This document shows positions 598 through 39,146 of a DNA stretch of 39,968 bases, piece by piece. This DNA comes from Rhodoferax sp. (GTDB lineage: Bacteria > Pseudomonadota > Gammaproteobacteria > Burkholderiales > Burkholderiaceae_C): NCBI RefSeq assembly GCF_025354435.1, contig NZ_JANXMU010000037.1:1-39968 (forward strand), read 5' to 3'. The notes beneath the pieces are model-generated. The model had not been told where the DNA came from. It ran no database searches and saw only the letters and a list, made by a program, of their open reading frames with translations. Within the stretch, counting starts at the first letter, position 1. Every line of letters begins with the position of its first letter. A program made the translations under genes and the position numbers.

Positions 598-650
598 TAA
601 TAGCTACTAGCGCAGGCAGAATCTGCGCCAGAGGCTTATTTCTTATAAAT
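598..650 (+). repeat. Intergenic hairpin repeat, copy 1
   Basis: Member of a dispersed family with the pattern AATAGCTACTAGCG-variable-CGCTAGAGGCC-T-rich tail. Left arm CTAGCGCAG (607-615) pairs with CTGCGCCAG (623-631), 8 of 9 positions. It lies between convergent genes. Confidence 0.8.
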
Positions 651-661
651 TTGACGGCAGA

Positions 662-1912
662 TCAACCGGCGGTGGCTGCAGCGCGCAGCTTGTCTTTCTT
701 GCTGGGCCGCTTGCCTTTGATACCGCCGTTGGTCTGCGCGGGCAGAGACGGCGCGGCCAGCTCTACCGGCTCGAAACCGGCCACTTCTTCGCGCGGCAGG
801 CTCAGGCCCTGGCGCTTTTCGATCAGGGCGAAATGGGCTTCGGTGTCGGCGGTGATGAAGCTAAACGCTTCGCCACTCTGCCCGGCGCGGCCGGTGCGGC
901 CGATGCGGTGCACATAGTCCACAGCAGAGCGCGGCAGGTCGTAGTTGACGATCACCGGCAGCTCAGCCACGTCGATGCCGCGGGCGGCCAGGTCGGTGGC
1001 CACCACCACGTGTACGCGCCCGGCCTTGAAATCGTCCAGCACCTGGGTGCGTTTGCCCTGGCTGAGCTGGCCGTGGAAGGGTTCGGCCCAGATGTCGGCC
1101 TTACGCAGCTTGTCGGCCACGATTTCGGCCGAGAACTTGGTGGCCACAAACACTAGCACGCGCTGCCAGCTGTTGGTCTGCACCAGGTGGCGCAGCAGTT
1201 GGGTGCGGCGGCTGGCATCCACGGCGATGGCACGCTGGGCAATGGCGGGCGCGGCGGTGTGGGTGGTGGGCTCGGCGGCCATTTCGATGCGCACCGGGTC
1301 GCGCAGCAGCTGCGCGGCCAGTGCGTCGATGGCGGGCGGGAAGGTGGCCGAGAACAACAGGTTCTGGCGCTGGGCGGGCAGCAGCGTGAGCACGCGGGCC
1401 AGCTCTTCGGCAAAGCCCAGGTCCAGCAGGCGGTCGGCCTCGTCCAGCACCAGGGCCGCCACGTGGGACAGTTGCAGGGCGTTGTGGTCCACCAGATCGA
1501 GCAGACGGCCCGGCGTAGCGACCACGATGTCGGCCCCTCCACGCAAGCCCATCATTTGCGGGTTGATGGACACGCCACCAAAGATCACCGCAATTTTCAA
1601 AGGCTGCGGCAGGTGCTGGGCCAGGCCCCGGAACACCTCGGCCACCTGGGCCGCCAGCTCGCGCGTGGGCACCAGCACCAGCACGCGGGGGCGGCGCTTG
1701 CCGTCTTGGCGCGGCGCGTCCATCAGGCGCTGCAGCAGGGGCAAGGCGAAGGCGGCGGTTTTGCCCGAACCGGTGGGGGCTGCGGCCCACACATCCGCCC
1801 CGCGCACGATGGCCGGAATGGCCGAGGTCTGGATGGCAGTAGGTGCAGTAAAGCCCTGTTCGCGCACGGCGCGCAGCAAGGCGGGAGCAAGTCCCAGGGA
1901 GGCAAATGGCAT
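662..1912 (-). CDS. rhlE: DEAD-box ATP-dependent RNA helicase, RhlE type
   Basis: 416-residue cytoplasmic RNA helicase that unwinds short RNA duplexes with ATP, in families linked to ribosome assembly and RNA decay. The core motifs are all visible: Q motif near 4-33 (FASLGL...TAIQ), motif I APTGSGKT 45-52, PTRELA about 82-87, TPGR 133-136, DEAD 157-160, SAT 188-190, and motif VI HRIGRTGR 335-342. A short lysine-rich tail (KGKRPSKKDKLR) ends the protein, shorter than in many RhlE proteins. It is monocistronic and convergent with the small acidic gene. RhlE is favoured over DbpA/SrmB by the Q motif and overall sequence. Confidence 0.9.
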   Translation of the reverse strand: MPFASLGLAPALLRAVREQGFTAPTAIQTSAIPAIVRGADVWAAAPTGSGKTAAFALPLLQRLMDAPRQDGKRRPRVLVLVPTRELAAQVAEVFRGLAQHLPQPLKIAVIFGGVSINPQMMGLRGGADIVVATPGRLLDLVDHNALQLSHVAALVLDEADRLLDLGFAEELARVLTLLPAQRQNLLFSATFPPAIDALAAQLLRDPVRIEMAAEPTTHTAAPAIAQRAIAVDASRRTQLLRHLVQTNSWQRVLVFVATKFSAEIVADKLRKADIWAEPFHGQLSQGKRTQVLDDFKAGRVHVVVATDLAARGIDVAELPVIVNYDLPRSAVDYVHRIGRTGRAGQSGEAFSFITADTEAHFALIEKRQGLSLPREEVAGFEPVELAAPSLPAQTNGGIKGKRPSKKDKLRAAATAG

Positions 1913-2116
1913 GGGAGGTGCGTCGGGCAGGACGCCTAGGAGGGGGTAGGCAGTTTAACCCCGTAGGCCAGGCAACCAAAGCGTTTGCGTGTTAAATTCA
2001 ACGCCAGCGCGCCTACTGTCTGCGTAATTTGCTATGAAGTTTGCAGCATACGCACCCGGCCCACTGGCGACATCCCCTCGCCCGTTACCCCACCCACCCG
2101 TGAAAGAAAGCCGCAG

Positions 2117-2521
2117 TTGAGCGACGATTTTGACTCCCTGTTCGACACGCCCCCCACAGCAGCAGTACCTGCCGCAGGCGTATCCAGCACAGCGGTAGCC
2201 CCCACCCTGCCTGCCCCCAGCACGCCCGAAGTAGCGGCATCTGCCGAAATCGTGCCAGAGGAAGACGCACCGCCCAGCGTATGGATTGCGCTCTACAAAC
2301 CGGGAGCCGACGTGCAGTACGAGGGCGAACCCCATACCGTCAGCCATGTGCATATCAGCCGCAACGGCCTGTTTGTGCGGCTGAAGGAAAAAGACGGCGT
2401 GGTGCCCGCCGAAAAGGTCAACATTCCCTTGACCCGCATGGTTTTACCGATGGGCGCATACCAGCCCAGCCCCCTCTTGTTGCAAGCCCCCCTGCCGCCC
2501 GGCCCGGCGCGCACCAAATAA
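2117..2521 (+). CDS. Conserved hypothetical protein with Pro/Ala-rich linker (about 134 aa)
   Basis: The start is uncertain. I prefer TTG at 2117, preceded by GAAAG and giving LSDDFDSLFDTPP; the frame stays open back to a TTG at 1985, but that 5' extension looks non-coding. Residues about 14-55 are a low-complexity Pro/Ala/Thr/Val linker. The C-terminal half is a compact domain (WIALYKPGADVQYEGEPHTV through EKVNIPLTRMVL) that looks like a small beta-rich fold. No signal peptide or membrane span. It lies 16 nt upstream of the CopD-like gene and is probably co-transcribed. I do not recognise the family. Confidence 0.6.
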   Translation: MSDDFDSLFDTPPTAAVPAAGVSSTAVAPTLPAPSTPEVAASAEIVPEEDAPPSVWIALYKPGADVQYEGEPHTVSHVHISRNGLFVRLKEKDGVVPAEKVNIPLTRMVLPMGAYQPSPLLLQAPLPPGPARTK

Positions 2522-3317: not shown

Positions 3318-3328
3318 AGTTTTCAGGC
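3312..3328 (+). terminator. Hairpin spanning the stop codon of the YjfB-type gene
   Basis: GCCTGAA (3312-3318) pairs perfectly with TTCAGGC (3322-3328) around a 3-nt loop, with the TGA stop codon inside the left arm. It sits directly before the long palindrome that follows, so the two hairpins are stacked. Confidence 0.4.
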
Positions 3329-3330
3329 AT

Positions 3331-3379
3331 AAAAAGAGCTACTAGCGCATATTAAACATACGCTAGTAGCTCTTTTTTT
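3331..3379. terminator. Bidirectional intrinsic terminator made of a repeat copy (copy 2)
   Basis: Perfect 17-bp inverted repeat, 3331-3347 with 3361-3377, around a 13-nt loop. The arms contain GAGCTACTAGCG and CGCTAGTAGCTC, the signature of the dispersed repeat family, but fully symmetrical. A T7 run (3373-3379) ends the plus-strand hairpin and an A5 run gives the minus strand its own U-tract. It lies between the convergent YjfB-type and dps genes, so it can terminate both. Confidence 0.85.
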
Positions 3380-3399
3380 AATAGCAAATCACTCTTTAA

Positions 3400-6906: not shown

Positions 6907-6933
6907 CCTGCCAGGCAGCCAGACGCTACAGAA

Positions 6934-6980
6934 TCAGTAGCTACTTGCGTATGACTCACCTGCGCTAGAGGCCATTTTAG
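6934..6980 (+). repeat. Intergenic hairpin repeat, copy 3
   Basis: AGTAGCTACTTGCGT at about 6936-6950 and TGCGCTAGAGGCC at 6961-6973, then a T-rich tail. The tail overlaps the stop codon of the convergent secreted-protein gene, so the repeat forms its 3' end. Confidence 0.75.
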
Positions 6981-7534
6981 TTGTCAAACTGCCGGTGGCC
7001 CGGCCCACCGCGTCCAGGGCCACGGTCATCGCGGCCATGGTCGTTACGGTCATTGCCGCGTCCGTGGTCATCGTGGCCACGGCCGTGGCGGGGGCCGTCA
7101 CCCCGGTCACCGCGTTCGTCACGCCGGTCGTGGTCGGGGCGGGGGCCACCGTGCGGCGGCGCCCACCAGCGGTTGCGCTCGTTGACCTGCACAAAGTACA
7201 CCGGACGACCGCAGGCGTTGTAGCGCCCGCAGTAGCGGCGCCAGTTTTTAGAATGGCCCGGTGGCACGTACAGGTACAGCGGCGGCTCGGCGATGGGGCC
7301 GCGCTGGATCAGCATGGGCTGGGCGTACAGCACCGGCGGCGGGGGCCGCGAGCCAAAGTTGATCTGGCCGTACACGCCAGGGGCAATGGCACCGCCGACG
7401 GTGCCATTGATGTACACGTCTTGCGCCTGGGCCGCGCCTGCGGCCAGCCCGCAGGCCAGCGCCAGCAGGGCCGCCGCGGTACGGAAACCGGCACGGGGTA
7501 AAAATCGAGAAAAAGGAACCAATGGGTGGGGCAT
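6977..7534 (-). CDS. Secreted protein with Arg/Asp/His/Gly-rich tail
   Basis: About 185 residues from ATG 7534, which has GAGAG upstream; a TTG 39 nt further up is less likely. Clear signal peptide: basic start, hydrophobic AAALLALACGLAAGAAQAQ, cleavage after AQA. The mature N-terminal part (DVYINGTVGGAIAPGVYGQI, then PPPPVLYAQPMLI and YLYVPPGHSKNWRRYC, plus a second Cys in YNACGRPVYFV) is conserved in related proteobacterial periplasmic proteins as far as I recall. The last 55 or so residues are low complexity, almost only R, D, H, G, N and P. Two cysteines could form a disulfide. Function unknown. Confidence 0.7.
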   Translation of the reverse strand: MPHPLVPFSRFLPRAGFRTAAALLALACGLAAGAAQAQDVYINGTVGGAIAPGVYGQINFGSRPPPPVLYAQPMLIQRGPIAEPPLYLYVPPGHSKNWRRYCGRYNACGRPVYFVQVNERNRWWAPPHGGPRPDHDRRDERGDRGDGPRHGRGHDDHGRGNDRNDHGRDDRGPGRGGPGHRQFDN

Positions 7535-7632
7535 GTAGCGCTCTCGTTTTAATTTATCAAGGTAGGTCTTCAACGTGGGAGTACGCCGGGTGGAAGACAG
7601 TTCCAGGTTTTAAATTGTTTTTTGCTCCTATA

Positions 7633-7678
7633 TAAATAGCTGCTTATGCAGGTAGCCATTGCACCAGAGCCTGTTTTT
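7633..7678 (+). repeat. Intergenic hairpin repeat, copy 4 (diverged)
   Basis: AATAGCTGCTTATGCAGGTA, then TTGCACCAGAGCC and a T5 run. Arms TTATGCA/TGCACCAG pair only partly. It lies between two same-strand minus genes (upstream of 7534, downstream of the response-regulator start region). Confidence 0.6.
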
Positions 7679-7716
7679 ACCCTCAACCTTCCCAACAGCC
7701 CGCGGTCAAGCGGACA

Positions 7717-24117: not shown

Positions 24118-24202
24118 GCACCTTGTCTGTATGCGGGCGGCGGCGCGCTGAGGGACTTTGTTGCCGCGATACCGCGTGCGTCTCCATCGCCAAATACTAC
24201 TA

Positions 24203-24260: not shown

Positions 24261-24262
24261 AG

Positions 24263-27149: not shown

Positions 27150-27204
27150 GCTCGGCCCCCCGTGGCGCAGGCATCCGTCTGCGCCACTCCCCATCGTGAA
27201 TCCT

Positions 27205-28737: not shown

Positions 28738-28752
28738 ACCTTTTTTTTACCT

Positions 28753-29715
28753 ATGTCTACACCCCCAAAATCCCCCACCAGCAGCCAGCTCGGCACCTAC
28801 CTGGGCCTGAGCGCCGTGCTGGTCGGCATGGTCATGCTATTCAGCAGCCTGAGCGAATACTTCTTCAGCGGCGAGACCTTTGTCGCGATTGCCAACGAAA
28901 TCCCGGCCCTGCTGGTGATGGCGGTGGGCATGACCTTTGTGCTGATCATCGCGGGCATTGATTTGTCGGTGGGCTCGGTGCTGGCCCTGTCGGCGGCGGC
29001 CACGGCCAACGCCATCCTGCTCTGGCACTGGGGCGTGCTGCCCGCGGCGGTGCTGGGCCTGTTGGTGGGACTGCTGTGCGGAGCCATCACCGGCGGCATT
29101 GCGGTGATGTGGCGGCTGCCGTCCTTCATCGTCTCGCTGGGCATGCTGGAAGCCGTGCGCGGCGGGGCCTATGTGGTGACCGACTCGCGCACCCAGTACG
29201 TGGGCGATGCCATCTCCGGCCTGGCTGCGCCCTGGGTGGGCGGCGTGTCGTCGGCCTTCTTCATCGCCGTGGCTCTGGTGGTGGTGGGCCAGCTGGTGCT
29301 GACCAAGACCGTGTTTGGCCGCTACGTGGTCGGCATCGGCACCAACGAGGAGGCCATGCGCCTGGCGGGCATCAACCCCAGCCCGATCCGCATCGCGGTG
29401 TTTGCCGCCACCGGTCTGCTGGCGGGTTTTGCGGGTCTGATGCAATCCGCCCGCCTGGAAGCCGCCGACCCGAACGCGGGCACCGGCATTGAGCTGCAGG
29501 TAATTGCGGCGGTGGTGATTGGCGGCACCAGCCTGATGGGCGGGCGCGGCTCGGTCATCAACACCTTCTTTGGCGTGCTAATCATCGCCGTGCTGGAAGC
29601 GGGCCTGGCCCAGATCGGCGTGAGCGACCCGAGCAAACGCATCATCACTGGCTGCGTGATCGTGGTGGCGGTGATCATCGACACCGTGCGCCAACGCCGC
29701 GCGCTGGCCCACTAA
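28753..29715 (+). CDS. rbsC: Ribose ABC transporter permease RbsC
   Basis: 320 residues, 8-10 membrane helices. The family signature IDLSVGSVLALSAAATANAI (about 73-92) and the ATPase-contact segment GTNEEAMRLAGINPSPIRI (about 196-214) are present. It forms the inner-membrane channel for ribose. The ATG is preceded not by a purine-rich ribosome site but by a run of eight T (28741-28748), so translation may depend on coupling to rbsA, 15 nt upstream, or on a U-rich ribosomal S1 site. Confidence 0.92.
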   Translation: MSTPPKSPTSSQLGTYLGLSAVLVGMVMLFSSLSEYFFSGETFVAIANEIPALLVMAVGMTFVLIIAGIDLSVGSVLALSAAATANAILLWHWGVLPAAVLGLLVGLLCGAITGGIAVMWRLPSFIVSLGMLEAVRGGAYVVTDSRTQYVGDAISGLAAPWVGGVSSAFFIAVALVVVGQLVLTKTVFGRYVVGIGTNEEAMRLAGINPSPIRIAVFAATGLLAGFAGLMQSARLEAADPNAGTGIELQVIAAVVIGGTSLMGGRGSVINTFFGVLIIAVLEAGLAQIGVSDPSKRIITGCVIVVAVIIDTVRQRRALAH

Positions 29716-29719
29716 CACA

Positions 29720-30712
29720 ATGGCCTCCATCAAAGATGTCGCCCGCCATGCCAATGTGTCGATCTCCACGGTGTCGCACGTGGTCAACCGCACGCGCTTC
29801 GTCAGCGACAAGGCGCGTACCGACGTAGAAGCCGCCATCCGCGCCCTCGACTACGTGCCCAGCGCGGTGGCCCGCAGCCTGAAGAGCAACACCACCAAAA
29901 CCCTGGGGATGCTGATCCCCAACTGTTCCAACCCCTACTTCGCCGAGATCGTGCGCAGCGTGGAAGACCATTGCTTTGCCAGCGGCTACACGCTGATTTT
30001 GTGCAACACCGACGACGAGCCACGCCGCCAAAGCGTTTACCTGCAGGTGCTGGCCGAAAAGCGGGTGGACGGCCTGATCATCATCTCCACCGGCGAAGCC
30101 AGCGACCTGCACGACCTGCTGCAGGGCCTGACCACCCCCACCGTGCTGCTCGACCGCGAGGTCACCCATGTGCACTGCGACCTGGTGGAAACCGCCCACC
30201 TGCAAGGCGGCCAGATGGCCACCGAGCACCTAGTGGCGTTGGGCCACCGGCGCATCGCCTGCATCGGCGGCCCGGCCGACCTGAGCCCCAGCGCCCAGCG
30301 TATCCAGGGCTGGCGCAACGCCCTGGCGGCGGCGGCCCTGGCAGACGACCTGCTCTGGCACAGCGACTTCAGCAGCCAGGGCGGCTTCAACGCCATGCAG
30401 GAAATTTTGCAATCGGGCCACCGGCCCAGCGCGGTGTTTGTGTGCAACGACCTGATGGGCATAGGCGCGCTCAGCGCCGCGCACGAGGCCGGGCTGCGCA
30501 TCCCGCAAGACCTGTCGGTTATCGGCTTTGACGACATCGAACTGGCCCGCTTCACCAGCCCGCCGCTGACCACCATCGTGCAACCCAAGCAGCGCATTGG
30601 CCAGCTGGCGGTGGACATGCTGCTCGAACGCATCCAGGGCGGGCGGCTAGATGCCAAACAAATGCTGCTGCAGCCCGAGCTGGTCGTGCGCGCATCCACC
30701 TCACCACCATAG
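29720..30712 (+). CDS. rbsR: Ribose operon repressor RbsR (LacI family)
   Basis: 330 residues. N-terminal LacI helix-turn-helix and hinge (ASIKDVARHANVSISTVSHV about 2-21, then YVPSAVARSLK about 46-56), followed by a periplasmic-binding-protein-like sugar domain (about 62-330; IPNCSNPYFAEIVR, VLLDRE, VIGFDDIELARF). It represses the operon through the palindrome at 26081-26098 until ribose binds. Gene lies inside the operon between rbsC (4-nt gap) and rbsD (5-nt gap), so it is autoregulated. Confidence 0.9.
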   Translation: MASIKDVARHANVSISTVSHVVNRTRFVSDKARTDVEAAIRALDYVPSAVARSLKSNTTKTLGMLIPNCSNPYFAEIVRSVEDHCFASGYTLILCNTDDEPRRQSVYLQVLAEKRVDGLIIISTGEASDLHDLLQGLTTPTVLLDREVTHVHCDLVETAHLQGGQMATEHLVALGHRRIACIGGPADLSPSAQRIQGWRNALAAAALADDLLWHSDFSSQGGFNAMQEILQSGHRPSAVFVCNDLMGIGALSAAHEAGLRIPQDLSVIGFDDIELARFTSPPLTTIVQPKQRIGQLAVDMLLERIQGGRLDAKQMLLQPELVVRASTSPP

Positions 30713-30717
30713 ACACC

Positions 30718-31122
30718 ATGAAACGCACCTCTTTGCTCCACGCCGAACTCTCCCAGGTCATTGCCAGCATGGGCCATGGCGACATGCTGGTGCTGGGCGA
30801 CGCGGGCCTGCCCATCCCCGTGGGCCCCGGCGCGCCACAGCGCATCGACCTGGCCGTCTGCCCTGGCACGCCCGACCTGCGTACCGTGTTGCAAGCAGTT
30901 TTGACCGAGCTACAGGTGGAGTCCAGCATCATCGCCACCGAAGCCCTGGTGGGCGACGACCGCCAACTGCCCGCCTGGTGCGCCGACCAGCTCGCCACCC
31001 AACCCGCCACCGTCAACCATGCCGAATTCAAAAAGCTTTGCGGCCAGGCCCGCGCCATGGTGCGCACCGGCGAGTGCACGCCCTACGCCAACATCATCCT
31101 GGTGGCCGGGGTGGCGTTTTAA
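30718..31122 (+). CDS. rbsD: D-ribose pyranase RbsD
   Basis: 134 residues. RbsD interconverts the beta-pyran and beta-furan forms of ribose so that ribokinase can use it. Signature pieces: LLHAELSQVIASMGHGDMLVLGDAGLPIP at the N-terminus with the catalytic His of the GHGD element, and the C-terminal ARAMVRTGECTPYANIILVAGVAF with TPYANI in the sugar site. Last gene of the cluster; no ribokinase gene follows, which is unusual. A repeat copy follows the stop codon. Confidence 0.9.
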   Translation: MKRTSLLHAELSQVIASMGHGDMLVLGDAGLPIPVGPGAPQRIDLAVCPGTPDLRTVLQAVLTELQVESSIIATEALVGDDRQLPAWCADQLATQPATVNHAEFKKLCGQARAMVRTGECTPYANIILVAGVAF

Positions 31123-31130
31123 GCCATTGC

Positions 31131-31193
31131 TATTAAATAAGTAGCTACTACCGTAGACAGCATATGCGCTAGAGGCCTATTTTTTATAAATTC
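31131..31193 (+). repeat. Intergenic hairpin repeat, copy 9
   Basis: AAGTAGCTACTACCGTAGAC, then CATATGCGCTAGAGGCC and a T-rich tail. The tail encodes the last codons and stop (IYKK-stop) of the convergent PAP2 gene. Between convergent rbsD and PAP2 genes. Confidence 0.8.
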
Positions 31194-31995
31194 CGGGTTG
31201 GGGGTACATCCAGCGCGTCAGCCCGATGCTGGTGATACAAACCACCAACCAGGCCGTGCCAGACGCAAACCCCGCCAGCACATCGCTGGCAAAGTGCACG
31301 CGTAAAAACACCCGGCTCACGCCCACCGAAAACGCCAGCGCCACCGCGGCCAGCACTAGCGGAAAATGCCAGCGTGGCGGCACAAAGCGGCACAGCACAT
31401 AGGCCAGCATGCCGTACAGCACCACCGAGCCCGAACTGTGGCCGCTGGGGAAACTGAAGCCGTGGGCCACTACCAGCCCGTCGTCGTGCACCGGCCGCAC
31501 CCGCGCAAAAATCTGCTTCAGCGTGGTGTTGAGCACGCCGTTGCCTGCCACGGCCAGCACCCAGCCCAGTGCCAGCCAGCGGCGGCCACGCCACACCAAC
31601 AGCACCGCGACCAGGATGCACAGGCCGGTGACGGTGGCGGTGTCGGCCAGACGCGTCAGCAGCGCAAACCCCTGCAGCGCGGCAAGCGGCAGCTGGGTGC
31701 GCAGGCTGTCGGCCAGCGCCTGGTCGGCCCGGCCCATGGTTCCATCGGTGCCCAGCTTTTCGGCCAGCTCGGCAAACACCCAGGCCGCGGCCACGATCAC
31801 CGCGAAGCCCGCCGCCAGCCGCACGCCCAGGTACAGCGGGGGCGACAGGCTGCTGTGCTCGCGCGGCACATGCATGCGCCGCAGCCCCCACCAGGCCACC
31901 CCGGTGGACAGCAGCAACACCACCAGCAGCCCGCCAAATATCGGCAACGCATGCTGCCCCGCCCAAGCTGCCCAGGACTCTGCATCAAACGGCAT
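31177..31995 (-). CDS. PAP2-family membrane phosphatase
   Basis: 272 residues from ATG 31995 (GGGGG upstream; overlaps the metallophosphoesterase stop by 11 nt). About six membrane helices. The three phosphatase motifs are present: KQIFARVRP, FPSGHSSG and SRVFLRVHFASDV. Such enzymes remove phosphate from phosphatidic acid, undecaprenyl diphosphate or phosphatidylglycerophosphate. With a DAG-kinase-like gene two genes upstream, a phosphatidic acid / undecaprenyl-phosphate substrate is likely. Last of a three-gene unit. Confidence 0.9.
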   Translation of the reverse strand: MPFDAESWAAWAGQHALPIFGGLLVVLLLSTGVAWWGLRRMHVPREHSSLSPPLYLGVRLAAGFAVIVAAAWVFAELAEKLGTDGTMGRADQALADSLRTQLPLAALQGFALLTRLADTATVTGLCILVAVLLVWRGRRWLALGWVLAVAGNGVLNTTLKQIFARVRPVHDDGLVVAHGFSFPSGHSSGSVVLYGMLAYVLCRFVPPRWHFPLVLAAVALAFSVGVSRVFLRVHFASDVLAGFASGTAWLVVCITSIGLTRWMYPQPGIYKK

Positions 31996-32788
31996 ACAGC
32001 CCCCGGTGCACCTGCAGAGAGGTGACTTGGGCACAGACAAAAGCGCCTGCGTCGGCAGCGAAATCCCACTGCTCTACGTCGCAACGCCGGTCGGCGGCCT
32101 GCCAGCGCAGCAGGTTCACCGAGTTCGGCGCGCCCGCGCGCACCCGGCGCGACACCGCCGTGCCCGCCTGCACCGCCCACAGGGGCCGCGCCAGGCCCGG
32201 CAATGGCAGCACAAACGGCAGGTGGATGTGCCCGCCCATCACCAGGTCGGCCCCGGCGCGCGCCCAGACGCGCTGTGCATCGGCATGGCCACGCAGCAGA
32301 TTTTTTACGTCCTCGGCCCGCTGCACCGCGATCGGCTGGTGGACCACCACCACGCGTAACTGCGCCGCGGTAGCCCCGGCCAGCAGCGTGGCGACGCGGT
32401 CGATCTGCGCGGGCGACAGCTCGCCGTTTTCATGCCGGTAGGCCCGGGTGGTTTTCACGCCGATGGCCAACAGATCGGCAGAGCGGAACACCGGCTCCAG
32501 ATCGGCCCCGAAGGCCGCGCAATGCCGGGCGTAAGGGTGTTGCCAGCGCGCCCACAGGTTGAGCAGCGGGATGTCGTGGTTGCCGGGAATCGCCAGCAGC
32601 GGCCCGCCCAGCCGGTCCATAAAGGCCCGCGCCGCGCGGAACTGGGCCGGACGCGCGCGCTGGGTGATGTCGCCCGACAGCACCAGCAAATCCGGCTGCT
32701 GCTGCCGCGCCAAGGCGGCCAGAGCCTCGACCACCGGGGCCTGCTCGGTACCGAAATGCGGGTCGGATATCTGCAGCAGCACCGTCAT
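31985..32788 (-). CDS. Metallophosphoesterase (calcineurin-like)
   Basis: 267 residues, soluble. The family's metal-binding motifs are in order: D-x-H (SDPHFG, about 8-13), GDI (LSGDITQ, about 37-43), GNHD (about 69-72), the H of VVVHQPIA (about 145-152), and GGHIH (about 185-189). It probably binds two metals and cleaves a phosphomono- or diester. CpdA-like cyclic-nucleotide and UDP-diacylglucosamine hydrolases share this fold; neither is certain. Coupled by overlap to the DAG-kinase-like gene upstream and the PAP2 gene downstream. Confidence 0.88.
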   Translation of the reverse strand: MTVLLQISDPHFGTEQAPVVEALAALARQQQPDLLVLSGDITQRARPAQFRAARAFMDRLGGPLLAIPGNHDIPLLNLWARWQHPYARHCAAFGADLEPVFRSADLLAIGVKTTRAYRHENGELSPAQIDRVATLLAGATAAQLRVVVVHQPIAVQRAEDVKNLLRGHADAQRVWARAGADLVMGGHIHLPFVLPLPGLARPLWAVQAGTAVSRRVRAGAPNSVNLLRWQAADRRCDVEQWDFAADAGAFVCAQVTSLQVHRGLYAV

Positions 32789-33735
32789 GCGCGGCTGCCC
32801 TCGGCGGATTTCAGCAGGTACAAAGGCTGCGCGGCCACGCGGAACTCCAGCGGGGTGCGCATGCGGGTGACTTCGCCGTCAAACGCCACCTTGATCTTGC
32901 GGCGGCGCGGCTGCACCACCATGCGCGAGAAAGCAAAACTGTCCACGTTGCCGGCCTCGCCCAGCGTGCCCATCGCCCCGTGCAGCATCAGGCCCACCAT
33001 GGCCAGGGTGCCGATGGGTTTGAGCATCACGGCGGCGATCTGGCCATCGTCCAACGGGCGCGCCGGGTGCTCGCTCAGGTTCACACCCACCTGCTCCAGC
33101 TGCAGCCGGTTGTTGCCCACAAACAGGGTGGGCGTGCGCACATTGCGCACCACGCCGCCCTGGTCGATGTGCAGGTGCAACTGGCGGTGGCCGCGCAGCA
33201 GCGTCATCAGAGCCGCGCCCAGGGCCACCCAGCGGCTGCGGCCAAAGCGGGCCTTGTAGGTTTCGCGGTCTTCCAGCAGCACCGGGTACAGGCCCAGGCT
33301 GGCGTTGACCAGAAACACGTGGCCGTTCACCGTGCCCACCTGTACCGGCGTGGGCACGGCCTGCATCAGCATCTGCGCGGCTTGCGCGGGCTCGGTGGAA
33401 ATGCCGTGGGTGCGGGCAAAGTAGTTAAAGGTGCCCAGCGGCACCACGCCCATGGCACAGCCCGCGGCGTGCGCGGCCTGGGACACGGCGTTGATGGTGC
33501 CGTCGCCGCCTACCGCCACCACCGCCGAGCGGGTGGCCAGGGCGGTGGCCGCGGCTTCGCGGGCCACGCGGGGCAGATCGGCAGGGCGGGTAAAGCACAG
33601 CTCGCCGGTGCGCCCGGCGGCTTGCAGGGCTTGGTCGATCACCGCCCGCTTGGCATCGGCATCGCTGCGGCCCGAGGCGGCGTTGATGATAAAAATAAGC
33701 GGTGCGGCGGGGTCCAGGTCGGGGCATTGCGTCAT
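32785..33735 (-). CDS. Diacylglycerol kinase-family lipid kinase
   Basis: About 316 residues. DAGK catalytic domain at the N-terminus with nucleotide-binding motif GGDGTIN, preceded by INAASG (typical N-x-x-S/A-G), and a C-terminal lid domain. YegS/BmrU-like soluble lipid kinases phosphorylate diacylglycerol or related lipids. Start chosen at ATG 33735 (GCGGGC upstream); ATG 33744 is an alternative. First gene of the unit, overlapping the metallophosphoesterase by 4 nt. Upstream lies repeat copy 10 and a divergent MFS gene. Confidence 0.88.
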   Translation of the reverse strand: MTQCPDLDPAAPLIFIINAASGRSDADAKRAVIDQALQAAGRTGELCFTRPADLPRVAREAAATALATRSAVVAVGGDGTINAVSQAAHAAGCAMGVVPLGTFNYFARTHGISTEPAQAAQMLMQAVPTPVQVGTVNGHVFLVNASLGLYPVLLEDRETYKARFGRSRWVALGAALMTLLRGHRQLHLHIDQGGVVRNVRTPTLFVGNNRLQLEQVGVNLSEHPARPLDDGQIAAVMLKPIGTLAMVGLMLHGAMGTLGEAGNVDSFAFSRMVVQPRRRKIKVAFDGEVTRMRTPLEFRVAAQPLYLLKSAEGSRA

Positions 33736-33769
33736 AGCCCGCATGCTAGCAGCCCCTGCCCAACACTAC

Positions 33770-33828
33770 AAAATAAATAGCTGTCTGTGCATATGGTTAT
33801 TGCGCTAGAGGTCTAAAAACCTTACAAA
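33770..33828 (+). repeat. Intergenic hairpin repeat, copy 10
   Basis: AAATAGCTGTCTGTGCATAT, then TGCGCTAGAGGTC and a T/A-rich tail. Arms pair partly, with G.U pairs on the plus strand. It is the only copy in a divergent gene gap. Confidence 0.7.
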
Positions 33829-33928
33829 ATTCGGTGCCTGCACGAAATAGCCAATACCCCTAGAATCCTAGGACTTACCCGTACTTTCATCCCCGCCGCG
33901 CTCTGCGGCCCAGCCCCCCGTTATTGTT

Positions 33929-35101
33929 ATGAACCTCCCCCTGCTGGCCCTGGCCGTTGCCGCTTTTGGCATTGGCACTACCGAATTCGTCATCATGGGC
34001 TTGCTGCCCGAAGTCGCCACCGACCTGGGCGTGACCATTCCCGCGGCGGGCATGCTGGTCTCCGCCTACGCGCTGGGCGTGGCGGTGGGCGGCCCGGTGC
34101 TGGCCGTGGCCACGGCCAAGATGCCGCGCAAAACCACGCTGGCCTGGCTGATGGCCTTGTTCATCCTGGGCAATATCGGCTGCGCGCTGGCCCCCAGCTA
34201 CGGTTGGCTGATGGTGGCGCGGGTGCTGACCTCGTTCTGCCACGCGGCCTTCTTCGGCATTGGCGCGGTGGTGGCCACCCAGGTGGTCGCACCGGAGAAG
34301 CGCGCCCAAGCTATGTCGATGATGTTTGCGGGCCTGACATTGGCCAATGTGCTGGGCGTGCCGCTGGGTACGCTGCTGGGGCAGCAGACCGGCTGGCGCT
34401 CTACCTTCTGGGCGGTGTCGGTAATCGGCGTGCTGGCCATGGCTGCCGTGCTGCGCTGGGTGCCCGCACTGCGCCAGACACTGAGCGGCAGCGCTTTGGG
34501 CGAGTTCCGCGTGCTGCGCCACAAGCAGGTGTGGCTGGCGCTGGGCATGAGCATGTTGGCATCGGCCAGCATGTTCACCATGTTCACCTACATCACGCCC
34601 ATCCTGCGCGATGTAACTGGCATCGCCCCGCAGAACGTCAGCTACGTGCTGCTGCTGTGCGGCGTGGGCCTGACCATTGGCAACCTGCTGGGCGGGCGGC
34701 TGGCCGACTGGCGGCTAATGCCGTCGCTGATGTGCATCTTTGCAGCCATTGCCGTGGTGCTGGTGACGTTCTCGGTCACCAGCCAGTGGGTCTGGCCAGC
34801 CGTGGCCACCCTGGTGCTGTGGGGCGTGGTGTCGTTCGCCACCGGCGCGCCCTTGCAGGTGCGGGTGGTGTCCCAGGCCGGGGATGCGCCTAGCCTGGCT
34901 TCCACGCTGAACATCGGTGCCTTCAACCTCGGCAACGCCCTGGGTGCCTGGCTGGGCGGCAGCGCGATTGCCGCGGGCTGGTCGCTGCGCACCCTGCCGC
35001 TGCTGGCCGCCGGGGTGACGCTGGGCGCGCTAGCCTTGACGCTGTACAGCGCGCGGCTGGACCGGGGTGAATCGGCGCGCGGAGCGATGGTCGGAGCCTA
35101 A
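33929..35101 (+). CDS. MFS transporter of the AraJ/DHA1-like group
   Basis: 390 residues with 12 predicted helices. It begins NLPLLALAVAAFGIGTTEFV, followed by GLLPEVATDLGVT and the loop-2 signature GGPVLAVATAKMPRK, the pattern of the YdhP/AraJ/PbuE-type exporters. The second half begins near residue 200. These transporters often expel arabinose, purines or drugs; the substrate is not readable here. No strong ribosome site. Its stop is next to the convergent CYTH gene. Confidence 0.85.
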   Translation: MNLPLLALAVAAFGIGTTEFVIMGLLPEVATDLGVTIPAAGMLVSAYALGVAVGGPVLAVATAKMPRKTTLAWLMALFILGNIGCALAPSYGWLMVARVLTSFCHAAFFGIGAVVATQVVAPEKRAQAMSMMFAGLTLANVLGVPLGTLLGQQTGWRSTFWAVSVIGVLAMAAVLRWVPALRQTLSGSALGEFRVLRHKQVWLALGMSMLASASMFTMFTYITPILRDVTGIAPQNVSYVLLLCGVGLTIGNLLGGRLADWRLMPSLMCIFAAIAVVLVTFSVTSQWVWPAVATLVLWGVVSFATGAPLQVRVVSQAGDAPSLASTLNIGAFNLGNALGAWLGGSAIAAGWSLRTLPLLAAGVTLGALALTLYSARLDRGESARGAMVGA

Positions 35102-35102
35102 A

Positions 35103-35570
35103 TCAGGGAGCTTGCCAATCACAGTACGGATGCGTCGCCAAGCGGGAGTTGTAGTAACGCGCATCGTCCGTCACCTCCAGGCCCACCCACGCGGGCCGGG
35201 CAAACACCTTGTCTTCGGACGTTAGTTCGATCTCGGCCACCACCAGACCGGCGTTCTGGCCTAAAAATTCGTCCACTTCCCAGGCGAATCCCCCAAACAG
35301 CACTACACGGCGGATTTTCTCAACGGTGGGCCCATCGCACAGCGCCAACATTTGCGCCGCATCGGCCAGCGGAATCGGGTATTCAAACTCGGCCCGCGTC
35401 GCGCCCTGGTTCGCCCCCTTGATGGTCAAAAAAGCCTGCTCGCCCGCAATACGCACGCGCACGGTGCGCTGCTTGTCGCGGTTCAGGTAGCCCTGGCTGA
35501 GCAGGGTGCCGGGGCCTTGGCGCCAGGCATCGCCGGTGACGAGAAACTTGCGTTCGATTTCAGTGGCCAA
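35103..35570 (-). CDS. CYTH-domain protein (putative triphosphatase)
   Basis: 155 residues. The CYTH signature EIERKFLV lies at residues 4-11, followed by the acidic and basic tunnel residues (QGYLNRDKQRTVRVRI, KGANQGATRAEFEYPI, KIRRVV, WEVDEF, VAEIELTSED). Such proteins hydrolyse inorganic triphosphate or bind organic phosphates in a metal-dependent tunnel. It is single-domain, without the CHAD domain often fused in bacteria. Convergent with the MFS gene. Confidence 0.9.
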   Translation of the reverse strand: MATEIERKFLVTGDAWRQGPGTLLSQGYLNRDKQRTVRVRIAGEQAFLTIKGANQGATRAEFEYPIPLADAAQMLALCDGPTVEKIRRVVLFGGFAWEVDEFLGQNAGLVVAEIELTSEDKVFARPAWVGLEVTDDARYYNSRLATHPYCDWQAP

Positions 35571-35725
35571 GGGGGTCTCCAGAAGGTAGATGGGCGGGTT
35601 GCCGGGGTGCGGGCCATTCTCCCAAATGGCTGCCCGGACTCCACCCGCCGCACGGTGTTATAACCAAGCCCCGCAATTCATCACCCTAGGTGGTGAGCCA
35701 AAGACCATATAGAAGGAATCGCACC

Positions 35726-36439
35726 ATGGGCGCGCAGTGGAAAGCAAAAGGTAAAGAGTTGGCAGCCAACGCCAGGGGCCGCGTATTTGGCAAATTGTCC
35801 AAAGACATCATGATCGCCGCACGCAGCGGGGCCGACCCTGCCGCCAACGCCCGGCTGCGGCTGCTGGTGGAGCAGGCCCGCAAGGTCTCCATGCCCAAGG
35901 AAACGCTGGACCGGGCCATCAAAAAAGGCGCGGGCCTGACCGGCGAAGCCGTCAACTTCGAGCACGTGATTTACGAGGGCTTTGCCCCGCACCGCGTACC
36001 GCTGATGGTCGAGTGCCTGACCGACAACGTCAACCGCACCGCGCCCGAGATGCGCGTGCTGTTCCGCAAAGGCCAGCTGGGCACCTCCGGCTCGGTGGCC
36101 TGGGACTTTGACCACGTTGGCATGATCGAAGCCGAACCCGCGGCCAAGGGCGCAGACCCCGAGCTGGCCGCCATCGAAGCCGGTGCGCAAGACTTTGAAC
36201 CCGGCGAGGAAGACGGCAGCACCACCTTCCTGACCGACCCGGCCGACCTGGACCTGGTCAGCCGCGCCCTGCCCACCCACGGCTTCACCGTGTTGTCGGC
36301 CAAGCTGGGCTATAAGGCCAAGAACCCGGTGGACCCCGCCAGCCTGAGCGCCGAGCAATTGGAAGAAGTCGAAGCCTTCCTGGCCGCGATTGATGGCAAC
36401 GACGACGTGCAAAACATCTACGCAGGTCTGGGCGGCTAA
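35726..36439 (+). CDS. YebC/PmpR-family protein (YeeN-like branch)
   Basis: 237 residues from ATG 35726 (GAAGGA upstream). Begins [20 protein letters not shown], then [48 protein letters not shown] in the N-terminal helical domain, and two acidic alpha/beta domains ([21 protein letters not shown] near the end). YebC-type proteins were described as DNA-binding regulators; more recent work points to a role in translation at proline stretches for related members. The start differs from the canonical MAGHSKW, so this is probably the second paralogue. Monocistronic. Confidence 0.88.
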
Positions 36440-36462
36440 AACCCCTTCTGCCCCATTTTTCT

Positions 36463-36478
36463 AGCCTGCGCGCAGGCT
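36463..36478. other. Perfect 16-bp palindrome between two plus-strand genes
   Basis: AGCCTGCGCGCAGGCT reads the same on both strands. It follows a T5 run rather than preceding one, so it is not a canonical terminator on either strand. Possibly a mRNA 3'-end stem or protein-binding site. Confidence 0.4.
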
Positions 36479-36503
36479 TGCCCTTACCTCTCAACACCGC
36501 TCC

Positions 36504-37109
36504 ATGGACTTTCTCATCCTGGCGATCTTGATCGCCATCGGCAGCTACGCGCTGACCTCGCGCGACCAGCGCCAGCGCATTGCCACGCTGGGCAGCCACC
36601 TTAGCCAGTACCAGATCGAAAAGCTGATGGAGACCGTCACCCAGGGCTACCTGCGGGCGCTGGGCGAAAAAGACCTGGCCCGGCAAGAGCAAATCTGGGC
36701 CCTGCTGAACACCAGCGAAGCCCAGTTGGCCGAGCAGTTCAAGCGCTTTGCCAGCGAATTTGCCAAAGCCGGTACCGAGCAGACCCGCGTCAGCAAAATC
36801 GCCATCGCCCTGCCCTATGCCGACACGCTGTTCCCCAGCGCCACCTTCGACCTGCGCAAGGTCTTCGCCATCCACGCCCAGGGCATCGCCCGTGCGGCGG
36901 ACACGGCCACCACCACCTCGGCCAAAGACAAGGCTTTCACCATGTCGGCCGAGCTGTTTTTGATGCAGCACACTTGCCACTGGTTCTGCAAGTCCAAAAC
37001 CGTGGCCTCGGCCCGCATGATGGCCCGCCACCAAACCACCTACGCCCAGCTGGTGGCCGCGGTGTCGCCCGAAACCCGCAAGGCGTATTGCAGCCTGGTG
37101 GATGCCTGA
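36504..37109 (+). CDS. Membrane-anchored hypothetical protein
   Basis: 201 residues. One N-terminal hydrophobic helix (MDFLILAILIAIGSYALTS), then a soluble, mostly helical cytoplasmic or periplasmic part with many Q, E and K residues (QRIATLGSHLSQYQIEKLME, FKRFASEFAKAG). Two cysteines and His in MQHTCHWFCKSK (about 153-164) could bind metal. No recognised domain. It begins 64 nt after the YebC-like gene without a clear ribosome site and ends just before a repeat copy. Confidence 0.65.
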   Translation: MDFLILAILIAIGSYALTSRDQRQRIATLGSHLSQYQIEKLMETVTQGYLRALGEKDLARQEQIWALLNTSEAQLAEQFKRFASEFAKAGTEQTRVSKIAIALPYADTLFPSATFDLRKVFAIHAQGIARAADTATTTSAKDKAFTMSAELFLMQHTCHWFCKSKTVASARMMARHQTTYAQLVAAVSPETRKAYCSLVDA

Positions 37110-37117
37110 TTGCTACC

Positions 37118-37170
37118 TAAAGAGTAGCTACTTGTGCTGGTGGAATAAGCACTAGAGGCCTAAAACCTTT
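37118..37170 (+). repeat. Intergenic hairpin repeat, copy 11
   Basis: CTTGTGCT (37131-37138) with AGCACTAG (37148-37155), 7 of 8 pairs. The usual GCG/CGC has become GTG/CAC, another compensated change. Between convergent genes. Confidence 0.85.
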
Positions 37171-37185
37171 GAGGAAATAGACAAA

Positions 37186-38063
37186 TCAAGCCGCCGCGCC
37201 GATGGTCTCCAGCGCCGCCAGTGCCTGGGCGGGCAGCACCAGATGCGCGGCAGCCAGGTTCTCCTGCAAATGCGCCAGTGACGAGGTGCCCGGGATCAGC
37301 AGGATGTTGGGCGCGCGCTGCAGCAGCCAGGCCTGCGCCACCTGCATGGGCGTGGCACCCAGCTCGCCCGCCACGCGGGTCAGCACGTCCGACTGCAAAG
37401 GCGAAAAGCCGCCCAGCGGAAAGAAAGGCACGTAGGCGATGCCTGCGGCGGCCAGTTCGTCGATCAGAGCGTCATCACCGCGCTGCGCCAGGTTGTACTG
37501 GTTTTGCACGCAGACGATGCGGGCGATGCGGCGGCCCTCGACGATCTGCTGGCGCGTGGCATTGCTCAGGCCGATGTGGCGCACCAGCCCCTGCTGCTGC
37601 AGCTCGGCCAGCGCCGTCAGCGGGGCTTCCAGCGAACCCTCGGCAGGCCCGTGCACATCGAACATGAGGCGCAGATTCACAACCTCCAGCACATCCAGGC
37701 CGAGGTTGCGCAGGTTGTCGTGCACCGCGGTGCGCAGCTCGGCCGCCGAAAACGCCGGCATCCACGAGGCGTCCGCGCCGCGCAAGGCACCGATCTTGGT
37801 GACCAGCGCCAGGTTGTGCGGGTACGGATGCAGCGCCTGCCGGATCAGCTGGTTGGTGATGTGCGGCCCGTAGAAGTCGCTGGTGTCGATGTGGTTGATG
37901 CCGCATCGATGGCAGCGCGCAACACGGCGAGCGCGGCTTGCGAGTCTTTGGGCGGGCCGAAAACGCCCTTGCCCGCCAGTTGCATGGCCCCATAGCCGAG
38001 GCGCTGCACACTGCGGTCGCCAAGGGGGTAGGTGCCGGCTGCGGCGGTGCGGGTGGTGGTCAT
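37186..38063 (-). pseudogene. Aldo/keto reductase of the PdxI/YdbC type, split by a single frameshift
   Basis: Start ATG 38063 (AAGGAAG upstream) gives MTTTRTAAAGTYPLGDRSVQ ... AVLRAAIDA in one frame; the rest (GINHIDTSDFYGPHITNQLI to LAALETIGAAA) continues in the next frame. The break is at about 37901-37905, where CCGC replaces an expected CCCGC (one missing base of the Gly codon). The body has the AKR barrel with NADPH-site RHIGLSN, and QNQYN, VPFFPLGGFSPLQ and LLIPGTSSLAHLQENL as in E. coli YdbC/PdxI (pyridoxal reductase). The usual AKR catalytic His region reads VVNLRLM, as I recall for that group. A true mutation or a sequencing error are both possible. Confidence 0.75.
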
Positions 38064-38167
38064 AAAAGCTTCCTTGGATGGTTGATGGAGCGACTGTAGG
38101 CGGCCATTGAGCGTGCGACAATCCATCTCACTCCGCACGGGCTGTGCGGAAAACCGAACAATCCACC

Positions 38168-39076
38168 ATGGTCAGCAACCTCGCCGACATCCACGCATTT
38201 CTGGCCGTCGCCCGCGCCGCCGGTTTTCGCGAAGCGGGCCGCGCCACGGGCAGCAGCGCATCCAGCCTGAGCGAAGCCGTGCGTCGCCTGGAAAACCAGC
38301 TTGGCGTGCGCCTGCTGAACCGCACCACACGCAGCGTGGCCCCCACCGAAGCCGGTGCGCGCCTGCTGGACCGGCTGGAACCCGCGCTGCGGGAAGTCGA
38401 TGCGGCCCTGGACCTGGTAAACAGTTTTCGCGACAAGCCTGCGGGCACGCTGCGGCTGAATGTGCCCGTCAGCGCCTCGCGCTTGGTGCTGCCCCACATC
38501 GTGCCGGCCTTTCTGGCGGCCTACCCGGACATCCGCCTTGAAGTGGTGGCCGAAGACAGCTTTGTCGATGTGCTGGCGGTGGGCTGCGACGCCGGCATAC
38601 GCTACGACGAGCGCCTGGAACAGGACATGATCGCCATCCCCATCGGCCCGCGCCAGCAACGCTTTGCCGCCGCCGCCTCGCGCGTCTACCTGGAGCAGCA
38701 CGGCCGCCCCCAGCACCCGCGCGAGCTGCTGGACCACGCCTGCCTGCGCGGCCAGTTCTCCAGCGGCGCCATACCCGCCTGGGAGTTTGAAAGCCAGGGC
38801 GAAAGCGTCAAGATCCAGCCCACCGGCCCGCTGCTGGTGCGCATCGGTGCAACCGCCGACCTGGCGGTGGATGTGGCCGTGGCAGGCACCGGCATCGTCT
38901 ATTTGTTCGAAGACTGGCTGCGGCCTTACTTTGCACGAGGGGAGCTGGAGCCTGTGCTCGAACCCTGGTGGCCGCGCTTTTCAGGGCCCTTTCTTTACTA
39001 CCCCGGCCGCCGCCTGCTGCCCGCCACGCTGCGGGCCTTTGTGGATTTCGTCAAGGCCATGCCGCCCTGGCAATGA
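38168..39076 (+). CDS. LysR-family transcriptional regulator (divergent from the aldo/keto reductase)
   Basis: 302 residues from ATG 38168. Winged helix-turn-helix about 4-60 (DIHAFLAVARAAGFREAGRA, SSLSEAVRRLENQLGVRLLNR), co-inducer domain about 90-295 (GTLRLNVPVSASRLVLPHIV, LAVGCDAGIRY, AVAGTGIVYLFEDWL). Divergent from the aldo/keto reductase across a 104-bp gap, so its likely regulator. It ends 7 nt before repeat copy 12. Confidence 0.88.
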   Translation: MVSNLADIHAFLAVARAAGFREAGRATGSSASSLSEAVRRLENQLGVRLLNRTTRSVAPTEAGARLLDRLEPALREVDAALDLVNSFRDKPAGTLRLNVPVSASRLVLPHIVPAFLAAYPDIRLEVVAEDSFVDVLAVGCDAGIRYDERLEQDMIAIPIGPRQQRFAAAASRVYLEQHGRPQHPRELLDHACLRGQFSSGAIPAWEFESQGESVKIQPTGPLLVRIGATADLAVDVAVAGTGIVYLFEDWLRPYFARGELEPVLEPWWPRFSGPFLYYPGRRLLPATLRAFVDFVKAMPPWQ

Positions 39077-39082
39077 CGGCGA

Positions 39083-39146
39083 TTTGCTATTTAAAAAATA
39101 GCTACTTGTGTAGGTGGAATATACGCTAGAGGCCTAAAATGCTTAC
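39083..39146 (+). repeat. Intergenic hairpin repeat, copy 12
   Basis: AAATAGCTACTTGTGTAGG, then TATACGCTAGAGGCCTAAAA. Left CTTGTGTA and right TACGCTAG pair with one mismatch and a plus-strand G.U pair. The tail overlaps the stop codon of the convergent flavin-reductase-like gene (39143-39145). Confidence 0.85.

Follow-up and report, generated by a model that had tools for sequence, protein, structure and literature searches.

We describe a REP-like family of hairpin elements, each about 68 bp long, which occupy fixed sites, mostly at gene 3' ends, and probably act there as two-way terminators or 3'-end hairpins. The family has sharp ends, lies at gene ends and is balanced in orientation. In the sample that could be compared between species the sites are conserved, the arms of the elements are inherited copy by copy, and the tips of the hairpins differ in concert. 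No description of this hairpin family was found in the literature searched, as judged from titles and the openings of abstracts, and the words Acidovorax, Polaromonas, Rhodoferax and Comamonadaceae are absent from the main texts of PMC3733652, PMC6006769 and PMC2817692.

Copies of the element in the window and the genome

The window is the whole stretch of DNA that was analysed, 39,968 nucleotides in length. A covariance model (R1) was built from ten window copies, which score 59.7–79.9 bits by construction. A search with model R2 at E≤0.05, in contigs amounting to a quarter of the window's own genome (G000), gave 214 matches, of which 206 were used. Left out were three opposite-strand duplicates (L071 4363, L059 2298 and window 3329) and five weak matches with E values of 0.014–0.037 (L067 16719, window 135, L056 18344, L090 9197 and L083 18581). 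The density corresponds to an estimated 800 or so copies per genome. The copies in the window are as follows.

587–651, + strand: element in a convergent gap (R1 68.8 bits)
3322–3386, − strand: element in reverse orientation in a convergent gap, the 'symmetrical' copy (3331) of an earlier note on this DNA (R2 60.4 bits minus, 33.3 plus; R1 46 minus, 17 plus)
6924–6988, + strand: element in a convergent gap (R1 65.7 bits)
7623–7687, + strand: element between two minus-strand genes, opposite to the genes (R1 59.7 bits; gene calls)
12645–12709, + strand: element between two minus-strand genes (R1 77.3 bits; gene calls)
18331–18395, + strand: degenerate element, at 18337 in the earlier note (R1 19 bits, E 0.15; absent from R2 at E≤0.05)
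22526–22590, + strand: element between two plus-strand genes (R1 76.2 bits)
24195–24259, + strand: element in a convergent gap (R1 74.0 bits)
31128–31192, + strand: element in a convergent gap (R1 77.1 bits)
33764–33828, + strand: element in a divergent gap, with orthologous copies in relatives G002, G005 and G007 (R1 65.8 bits)
37111–37175, + strand: element in a convergent gap (R1 70.6 bits)
39085–39149, + strand: element in a convergent gap (R1 79.9 bits)
135–199, − strand: weak, probably degenerate element in reverse orientation, outside the 206 (R2 34.4 bits, E 0.016)

The window thus holds ten clear copies on the plus strand and one on the minus strand, together with one degenerate plus copy and one weak minus copy. 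The repeat family proposed in the earlier note is real, with a member at all twelve places that it listed, one of them degenerate, and independent gene calls give the same tally of seven convergent, four same-strand and one divergent context. A word search of the window agrees: the left-arm word AATAGCTACTAGCG with up to three mismatches has 13 matches against 0.95 expected, a number reached by none of 100 shuffles, and the right word CGCTAGAGGCC with two mismatches is weaker, with 28 against 17.4 expected (reached by 2 of 100 shuffles). Rfam gave no match in the window at the gathering threshold.

Sequence and fold of the element

Alignment of 137 copies defines a unit of about 68 bp with sharp ends and random flanks. 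The unit begins and ends with an AT-rich arm, and between the arms lie an (A/G)TAG tag and then an imperfect hairpin. The tag occupies model positions 14–17; at its first base, alignment column 15, 111 of the 137 copies have A and 26 have G. ATAG therefore predominates in these copies, whereas the rule for REPs given in the cited sections of PMC6006769 is GTAG or GTGG, 0–2 nt 5' of the hairpin. Copies are diverged, with a median copy-to-copy identity of 63%, and some motifs in the arms, TGCTAT among them, show more conservation than a terminator would need.

Pairing in the hairpin exceeds that in shuffles, albeit in an alignment that had been fitted to the structure, so that the result leans towards pairing. 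Mean folding energies are −13.7 kcal/mol for the plus strand and −11.6 kcal/mol for the minus strand. Wobble pairs are likewise biased to one strand (T.G 122 vs A.C 46, with the fixed pair left out), independently of gene direction (25:7 in same-direction copies and 24:14 in opposite ones). A strand-specific factor that reads single-stranded DNA or RNA would account for this preference better than a terminator working both ways. On both strands a U-rich stretch lies 3' of the hairpin and adjoins gene ends; T reaches a frequency of 0.81–0.87 at element positions 53–55.

Location at gene ends

Gene contexts were taken from a home-made gene caller. In the 137-copy set, 50 copies lie in convergent, 61 in co-directional and 9 in divergent gaps, and 17 lie within called genes; the background of gaps of at least 60 nt is 88 convergent, 286 co-directional and 144 divergent. 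The enrichment of convergent over divergent gaps has a P value of 9e-18 when copies are treated as gaps. Counted by gap (60–600 nt, 206-copy set), the element occurs in 50 of the 85 between convergent genes, 80 of the 278 between co-directional genes and 21 of the 137 between divergent ones. The elements lie nearly flush with stop codons, at median distances of 9 and 3 nt in convergent gaps; in co-directional gaps the medians are 1 nt past the upstream stop and 50 nt ahead of the next start. At 22526–22590 the called stop codon (22540–22542, of the gene at 21349–22542) falls within the element itself. High copy number and a mainly convergent or unidirectional intergenic location are features of REPs, which lie predominantly downstream of genes between such ORFs according to the cited part of PMC3733652, yet 33 of the 206 copies are within called genes. 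Two of these genes, encoding SelO and MiaA, were checked for a clean in-frame insertion, and no clean 22-residue insert was found in either; SelO relatives are mostly of equal length at this place, and the MiaA linker varies.

From their sequence and location, the elements are most likely two-way intrinsic terminators or mRNA 3'-end hairpins. With U-rich sequence downstream on both strands, such a hairpin would terminate transcription at a gene 3' end whichever way round it lies, which would explain why orientation is close to random relative to co-directional genes (27 copies run with the genes and 34 against them). Canonical terminators outside the element are rarer in convergent gaps that contain one (3 of 50, vs 9 of 35 without; P 0.023), hardly rarer in co-directional gaps (5 of 80 vs 17 of 198), and show a reversed trend in divergent gaps (2 of 21 vs 4 of 116). 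At the gene end with the degenerate copy at 18331, relative G005 also has the element, and three relatives without it (G002, G003 and G007) carry other hairpins instead. The elements share with intrinsic bidirectional terminators the hairpin, the flanking U-rich stretches, the position against stop codons and the preference for convergent gaps; they differ in forming a sequence-conserved family with lineage dialects.

Orientation and replication

Orientation is balanced in the genome. The earlier note had all asymmetric copies pointing one way, but the copy at 3322–3386 is on the minus strand, and the quarter-genome sample has 107 plus and 99 minus copies, mixed within contigs. Nor is that copy symmetrical: its minus-strand scores far exceed those for the plus strand under both models, since the TTGCTATTAAA arm is at the minus-strand 5' side. 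Ten of eleven one way has a two-sided coin P of 0.012, rather than the suggested once in a thousand, and the window had been chosen for its run; when the sampled contigs were divided into 124 overlapping sets of 11 adjacent copies, 10 of 11 was reached in the window and nowhere else. The one-way run is local and needs no mechanism.

A KOPS- or Chi-like polarity, in which the elements would point a machine towards the terminus, is scarcely tenable and has largely been refuted by these counts. The comparison of strand with replichore that had been proposed was made for the best ~150 copies in each of two complete relatives. In G007 the right arm has 39 plus and 33 minus copies and the left arm 29 and 46 (P 0.07), and in G002 the corresponding numbers are 34 and 29, and 33 and 49 (P 0.13). 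Pooled (292 copies), 168 point with replication (leading) and 124 against (lagging; P 0.012), a weak bias at most; at 57:43 this is far from a signal, and no strong skew within replichores was found in the two genomes. Neighbouring copies are alike slightly more often than expected (112 of 197 vs 98, P 0.03), also in G002 (85 of 145, P 0.026), but not clearly so in G007 (81 of 147, P 0.14) or in the own genome once the window is left out (104 of 187, P 0.07). Furthermore, the matched parts of the window (20100–39968 was searched) lie in the right arm in both relatives, in inverted order, and the copies in these parts therefore have the minority orientation there.

Fixed sites and concerted tips

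For comparison between species, which are about 90% identical in rpoB (in the rpoB tree the placements of G011 and G019 are meaningless, having been read on the wrong strand), 58 of the 206 copies had collinear flanks in a relative within the limits used (a gap below 450 nt and no more than 200 nt of unaligned flank); the degenerate copy at 18331 is not among them. The element, read by eye, is present in all 58 gaps. The reverse comparison, starting from the relatives, placed 64 of their 142 copies (56 distinct pairs that were scored, three aligned by eye and five repeats of a place), and none of these 59 distinct places is empty. Since 50 of the 56 pairs involve copies that the search of G000 had found, most loci are common to both sets. 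A looser comparison left 3 of 23 cases without a clean match (587 in G007, 22526 in G006 and 24195 in G005). The hallmarks of mobile elements, empty sites and recent near-identical copies, are thus absent from this material (0 of 58 empty; no pair above 88% identity among 137 copies), and recent mobility was set aside.

Of the 58 ortholog pairs, 57 align without gaps. Differences in the arms are particular to each copy, as expected of inheritance per locus; the tips do not vary in this way. Position 28 is A in the own genome and T or C in the relative at 43 of 57 loci, with no case of the reverse, and tips therefore evolve in concert, as lineage 'dialects'. Pair 24–42 is broken in the relative by a single change in 14 of the 57 pairs, which is odd for pure selection on the stem. 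Where both sides changed, pairing was kept in 60 of 72 cases (null mean 0.72, maximum 0.82); as tip states are shared across a lineage, this compensation barely exceeds chance. Within G002, 48 pairs of copies have identical tips (positions 28–38), against 3.1 expected from column shuffles and 2.9 with loop pairs kept; a first-order Markov null has a mean of 23.6 and a maximum of 64. The identical tips therefore do not demonstrate copying of long tracts.

The concerted tips may result from selection by a hairpin reader or from copying of tips. A factor that recognises hairpins would read the tip, or copy it, and the Y1 gene described below is one candidate for this factor. That an enzyme acting on single-stranded DNA hairpins, perhaps a TIRYT-type Y1 protein, rewrites the tips in place, copying them between loci without moving the elements, is rather unlikely; if true, hundreds of fixed, vertically inherited sites would change dialect together by short-tract conversion or single-stranded DNA editing in bacteria. 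REP-like repeats are usually pictured as jumping and decaying, whereas here the compared sites are fixed and the tips of most copies differ between genomes by the same bases. Either the reader of hundreds of hairpins has changed its taste, with copies following singly, or tips have been copied without homologous recombination of normal length, and both readings bear on the role of domesticated Y1 proteins. According to the cited part of PMC8049555, what exactly the RAYT transposase does is unknown.

Relation to known repeat families

These data also bear on what kind of repeat this is. Decayed remnants of ancient miniature mobile elements, without a present function, would account for a defined, dispersed unit with copies in genes and low identity between copies, but this is improbable: pairs exceed shuffles, the placed sample has no empty sites, and neutral change would not give the one-way difference at position 28. 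Palindromic repeats inside open reading frames are also known from Rickettsia; the present element differs in lying mostly at gene ends and in the absence of a clean insert from the two genes checked. Pairs of DNA uptake sequences (DUS) form hairpin copies at gene ends, much as seen here. A DUS-like family, whose copies mark DNA in natural transformation and are kept uniform by an uptake bias, would also give lineage dialects spread genome-wide, and a genome-wide motif differing between lineages is known from the DUS dialects of Neisseriaceae (PMC3630211). We nevertheless consider it very improbable. The present element is a long hairpin unit whose tip changes without a fixed contiguous word, and single motif copies in coding sequence are not a feature of its left arm: the arm words AGCTACTAGCG (33 of 33) and ACTAGCGTA (30 of 30) occur only inside elements. 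The right word GCTAGAGGCC has 8 of its 39 occurrences in genes outside accepted copies, where composition predicts 4.5 for all.

A REP/RAYT-type system, in which a Y1 (HUH) protein cleaves or joins single-stranded plus-strand hairpins and selection tolerates sites at gene ends, is possible but not likely. The element shares with REPs and REPINs the hundreds of copies, the gene-end sites and a tetranucleotide-like tag on the 5' side of a hairpin that pairs imperfectly; its hairpin also has a preferred folding strand. The Y1-type transposase that the earlier note suggested looking for exists: a PF01797 profile search found one Y1 gene in the own genome, and at least one in 15 of the 16 genomes searched. 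An element lies directly behind its stop codon in five members of the genus, clearly in G007 (35 bits) and weakly at the same place in G005, G003, G002 and G000 (25 to 19 bits, E 0.06–0.7; degenerate in G000). Against this, the tag is mostly ATAG, the AT-rich arms are conserved, and diverged copies stay at fixed sites. Elements behind genes are common here, so the association with Y1 may be chance, and five genomes with one to three copies detected by a model tuned to the own genome still have a Y1 gene. The REP/RAYT idea of the earlier note thus has partial support, from the REP-like family, the single Y1 gene and the element behind it, but the gene looks to be of another kind and no recent transposition was found.

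The Y1 protein scores 77.2 bits with the REP-associated transposase model NF047646, just below the cut-off of 80. Judged by its length (~240 aa) and its Y-x-LNP motif, its gene looks TIRYT-like (TnpA_Y1 subclass 2.1). Inverted repeats, GGGGTCAG... and ...CTGACCCC, flank it in G000 and G002 by eye, and fit the consensus GGGG[AT][CG]A[CG] given for subclass 2.1 in the cited sections of PMC6006769. Whereas TIRYT genes are reported there without nearby REP-like sequences, here a hairpin of the element separates the stop codon from the downstream inverted repeat.

Repeats in the window and anatomy of the element

The covariance model R1, made from ten window copies, finds its ten source copies again, all on the plus strand. 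One repeat family is indeed present at all twelve places listed in the earlier note, and our own gene calls reproduce its tally of contexts (seven convergent, four same-strand and one divergent). The claim that all copies point in the same direction fails at 3331, where a copy described as symmetrical is instead reversed, since its TTGCTATTAAA arm sits at the 5' side of the minus strand; its minus-strand match is worth 46 bits with R1 and 60 bits with the broader model R2, compared with 17 and 33 bits for the plus-strand match. The 18337 copy is degenerate (19 bits), and R2 yields one further match:

135-199, minus strand, additional weak match (R2)

The alignment shows sharp boundaries close to positions -1 and 67, outside which the sequence is random, and the consensus in the window's own genome, G000, is TGCTATTAAATAAATAGCTACTAGCGTAGGTGGAATATGCGCTAGAGGCCTATTTTATTTAAATT. 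The AGC at positions 16-18 is invariant in 137 of 137 aligned copies, a set chosen by score, among which identity has a median of 63% and a maximum of 88%. The stem joins positions 17-28 to 38-49 and usually contains an A/A mismatch at 20/46; covariation in the hairpin is 0.203 compared with 0.168 in shuffles (0/500), a value inflated by relatedness in an alignment fitted to the structure. Wobble pairs on the plus strand are mostly T.G (232 vs 47; 122 vs 46 with the fixed pair excluded), and the plus strand gives the more stable fold in 95 of the 137 copies.

Orientation

The draft assembly of G000 comprises 4.66 Mb in 89 contigs, and the window is contig C31. It contains 66 forward and 63 reverse occurrences of the word GCTAGAGGCC, and R1 matched every one of the 150 candidates scored, a lower bound on the total. 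A strand count with R2 on 1.16 Mb (seven entire contigs, 12 kb of contig C59 and the window) gave near-equal orientations, with 107 plus and 99 minus among the 206 of 214 matches accepted. The density of ∼0.18 copies per kb extrapolates to ∼800 per genome. In this sample, 112 of 197 pairs of adjacent copies share an orientation (98 expected, P 0.03), as do 104 of 187 without the window (P 0.07).

Replication-linked polarity was also considered in two relatives with complete genomes, G007 and G002, using the best 147 and 145 copies out of 150 scored candidates each, with the origin placed from dnaA and the terminus assumed opposite, sampled GC skew being too weak as a check. Best-scoring copies divide 39+/33- (G007) and 34+/29- (G002) in the right arm and 29+/46- and 33+/49- in the left, or 168 leading-oriented and 124 lagging when pooled (P 0.012). 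Those parts of the window that found a match, in a search with 20100-39968, are inverted in the right arm of both relatives, so that their copies are minority-oriented there. Any polarity is no more than a weak bias. Within the first 0.4 Mb of G002:C1, 12 of 12 copies among those listed are on the minus strand, possibly by chance. G007 has eight extra Bac_DnaA-like matches, seven with identical scores, which look like insertion-sequence ATPase copies.

Location relative to genes and terminators

The 137 copies divide into 50 in convergent gaps, 61 in co-directional gaps, 9 in divergent gaps and 17 within called genes; the background of gaps of 60 nt or more is 88, 286 and 144, respectively. 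Co-directional copies run with the genes in 27 cases and against them in 34. In the 206-copy set, elements occupy 50/85 convergent, 80/278 co-directional and 21/137 divergent gaps of 60-600 nt. Stop codons abut both element ends in convergent gaps (medians 9 and 3 nt), and co-directional elements lie a median of 1 nt from the upstream stop and 50 nt before the next start. Canonical terminators are fewer in convergent gaps with the element than in those without (3/50 vs 9/35, P 0.023); the difference is small in co-directional gaps (5/80 vs 17/198), and the trend is reversed in divergent gaps (2/21 vs 4/116).

Within called genes lie 33 of the 206 copies (e.g. at L032:2774, L052:17285, L042:12874, L061:18092 and L075:17355), of which 16 are flanked on either side by codon scores of 0.2 per codon or more; inside the element the scores are mostly negative. 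The genes include those for SelO, MiaA, a CCA-adding-type enzyme and a ComEC-like protein. SelO shows no net insertion at the element relative to most relatives, and in MiaA the element falls in a linker of variable length.

A Y1 gene near the element

The idea of a REP/RAYT system stands in part: G000 has a Y1 gene with a weakly matching element behind its stop codon, but the gene looks TIRYT-like. PF01797 is found in one gene of G000 (C59:2869-3198); among 16 genomes, 14 have exactly one, G022 has 20 and the incomplete G006 none. The 232-aa G000 product scores 77.2 bits against NF047646 (cut-off 80), and GGGGTCAG inverted repeats lie on both sides of the gene; by these features it resembles subclass 2.1 (TIRYT) genes. 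In G007 an oppositely oriented element lies 3' of the stop codon (35 bits), and weak ones occupy the same place in G005, G003, G002 and G000 (25 to 19 bits, E 0.06-0.7). The published description (PMC6006769) reports no REP-like sequences beside subclass 2.1 genes, whereas here an element adjoins the gene; the association is suggestive only. The element behind the G000 gene is degenerate, and the HHVIQRGN stretch of the protein, or its variants, has Cys in G000 (L031, C59) and Arg in the other 13 listed.

Distribution

Using R1, which is tuned to G000, at E 1e-4, 16 of 60 genomes including its own were positive: 7 of 8 within the genus, 9 of 28 from other genera of the family and 0 of 24 from other families. 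A pattern scan of named genomes matched at least 119 stretches, and genera were taken from 80 of these. The matches listed include Acidovorax, Rhodoferax, Polaromonas, Ottowia, Giesbergeria, Diaphorobacter, Simplicispira, Extensimonas, Paracidovorax and Paenacidovorax, all of which we take to be Comamonadaceae, together with Comamonadaceae records and with MAGs whose label goes no further than Burkholderiaceae, Burkholderiales or a wider group. The family is one of ordinary-looking, REP-like gene-end hairpins without a real one-way rule; we found no description of its fixed sites and concerted tips in the literature searched.

Fixed sites between species

Collinear flanks in examined stretches of G002 or G007 allowed 58 of the 206 copies to be placed, and in all 58 gaps, read by eye, the element is present in the same orientation. 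In reverse, 64 of 142 relatives' copies mapped into the sampled quarter of G000 at 59 distinct places, largely the same loci, each with an element. All placed gaps being occupied, no recent jumping is seen in the placed sample, at an rpoB identity of 90-91% between G000 and these relatives (outgroup G003, 87%). Counting against site fixity, the degenerate 18331 copy is missing from G002, G003 and G007, whose orthologous gene ends have a different hairpin, with a T run after it in G003; in G005 the element is present. Variant GTGCCGACGTG / CACGTCGGCAC hairpins in these three at orthologues of window 18184-18462 (L171, L173, L175) are possibly a second repeat family. In Rhodoferax bucti, a 108-bp duplication (L212:451-558 and 2419-2526; 99% identical, 2 kb apart) covers a gene end, left arm and hairpin, ending at the hairpin's 3' foot.

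Concerted hairpin tips

Across 57 ortholog pairs, identity is higher between orthologues than paralogues in the left arm (82% vs 57 and 53%) and right tail (73% vs 47 and 43%): the arms are retained copy by copy. Identity in the outer stem is intermediate (76% vs 65 and 64%). In contrast, orthologous tips (positions 23-43) are 57% identical, no better than same-genome paralogues (53 and 57%), and agreement at positions 28 and 38 falls to 19 and 23% between orthologues, compared with 56-72% for paralogues. Position 28 is A in G000 and T or C in the relative at 43 loci, and position 38 is T in G000 and A or G in the relative at 44, with no reverse case at either. Positions 20 (14:1), 23 (26:0), 24 (20:1), 27 (24:1) and 39 (18:0) are also one-sided, position 30 less so (21:4).

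Bases at the paired positions 28 and 38, by genome, genus or species
G000: A-T, 119/132
G003: A-T, 7/12
G005: A-T, 6/8
G006: A-T, 6/8
Polaromonas: A-T, 9/10
G002: T-A, 13/25
G007: T-A, 20/32
Acidovorax: T-A, 32/39
Rhodoferax bucti: A/A, 6/9

The concerted tips may result from copying or from selection. Model bias is not the cause of the contrast, since it is the same when relatives' copies are the start (T-A in 39/56 in relatives, A-T in 41/56 in G000). Sharing of tip words is above column shuffles but within the range of a first-order Markov null.
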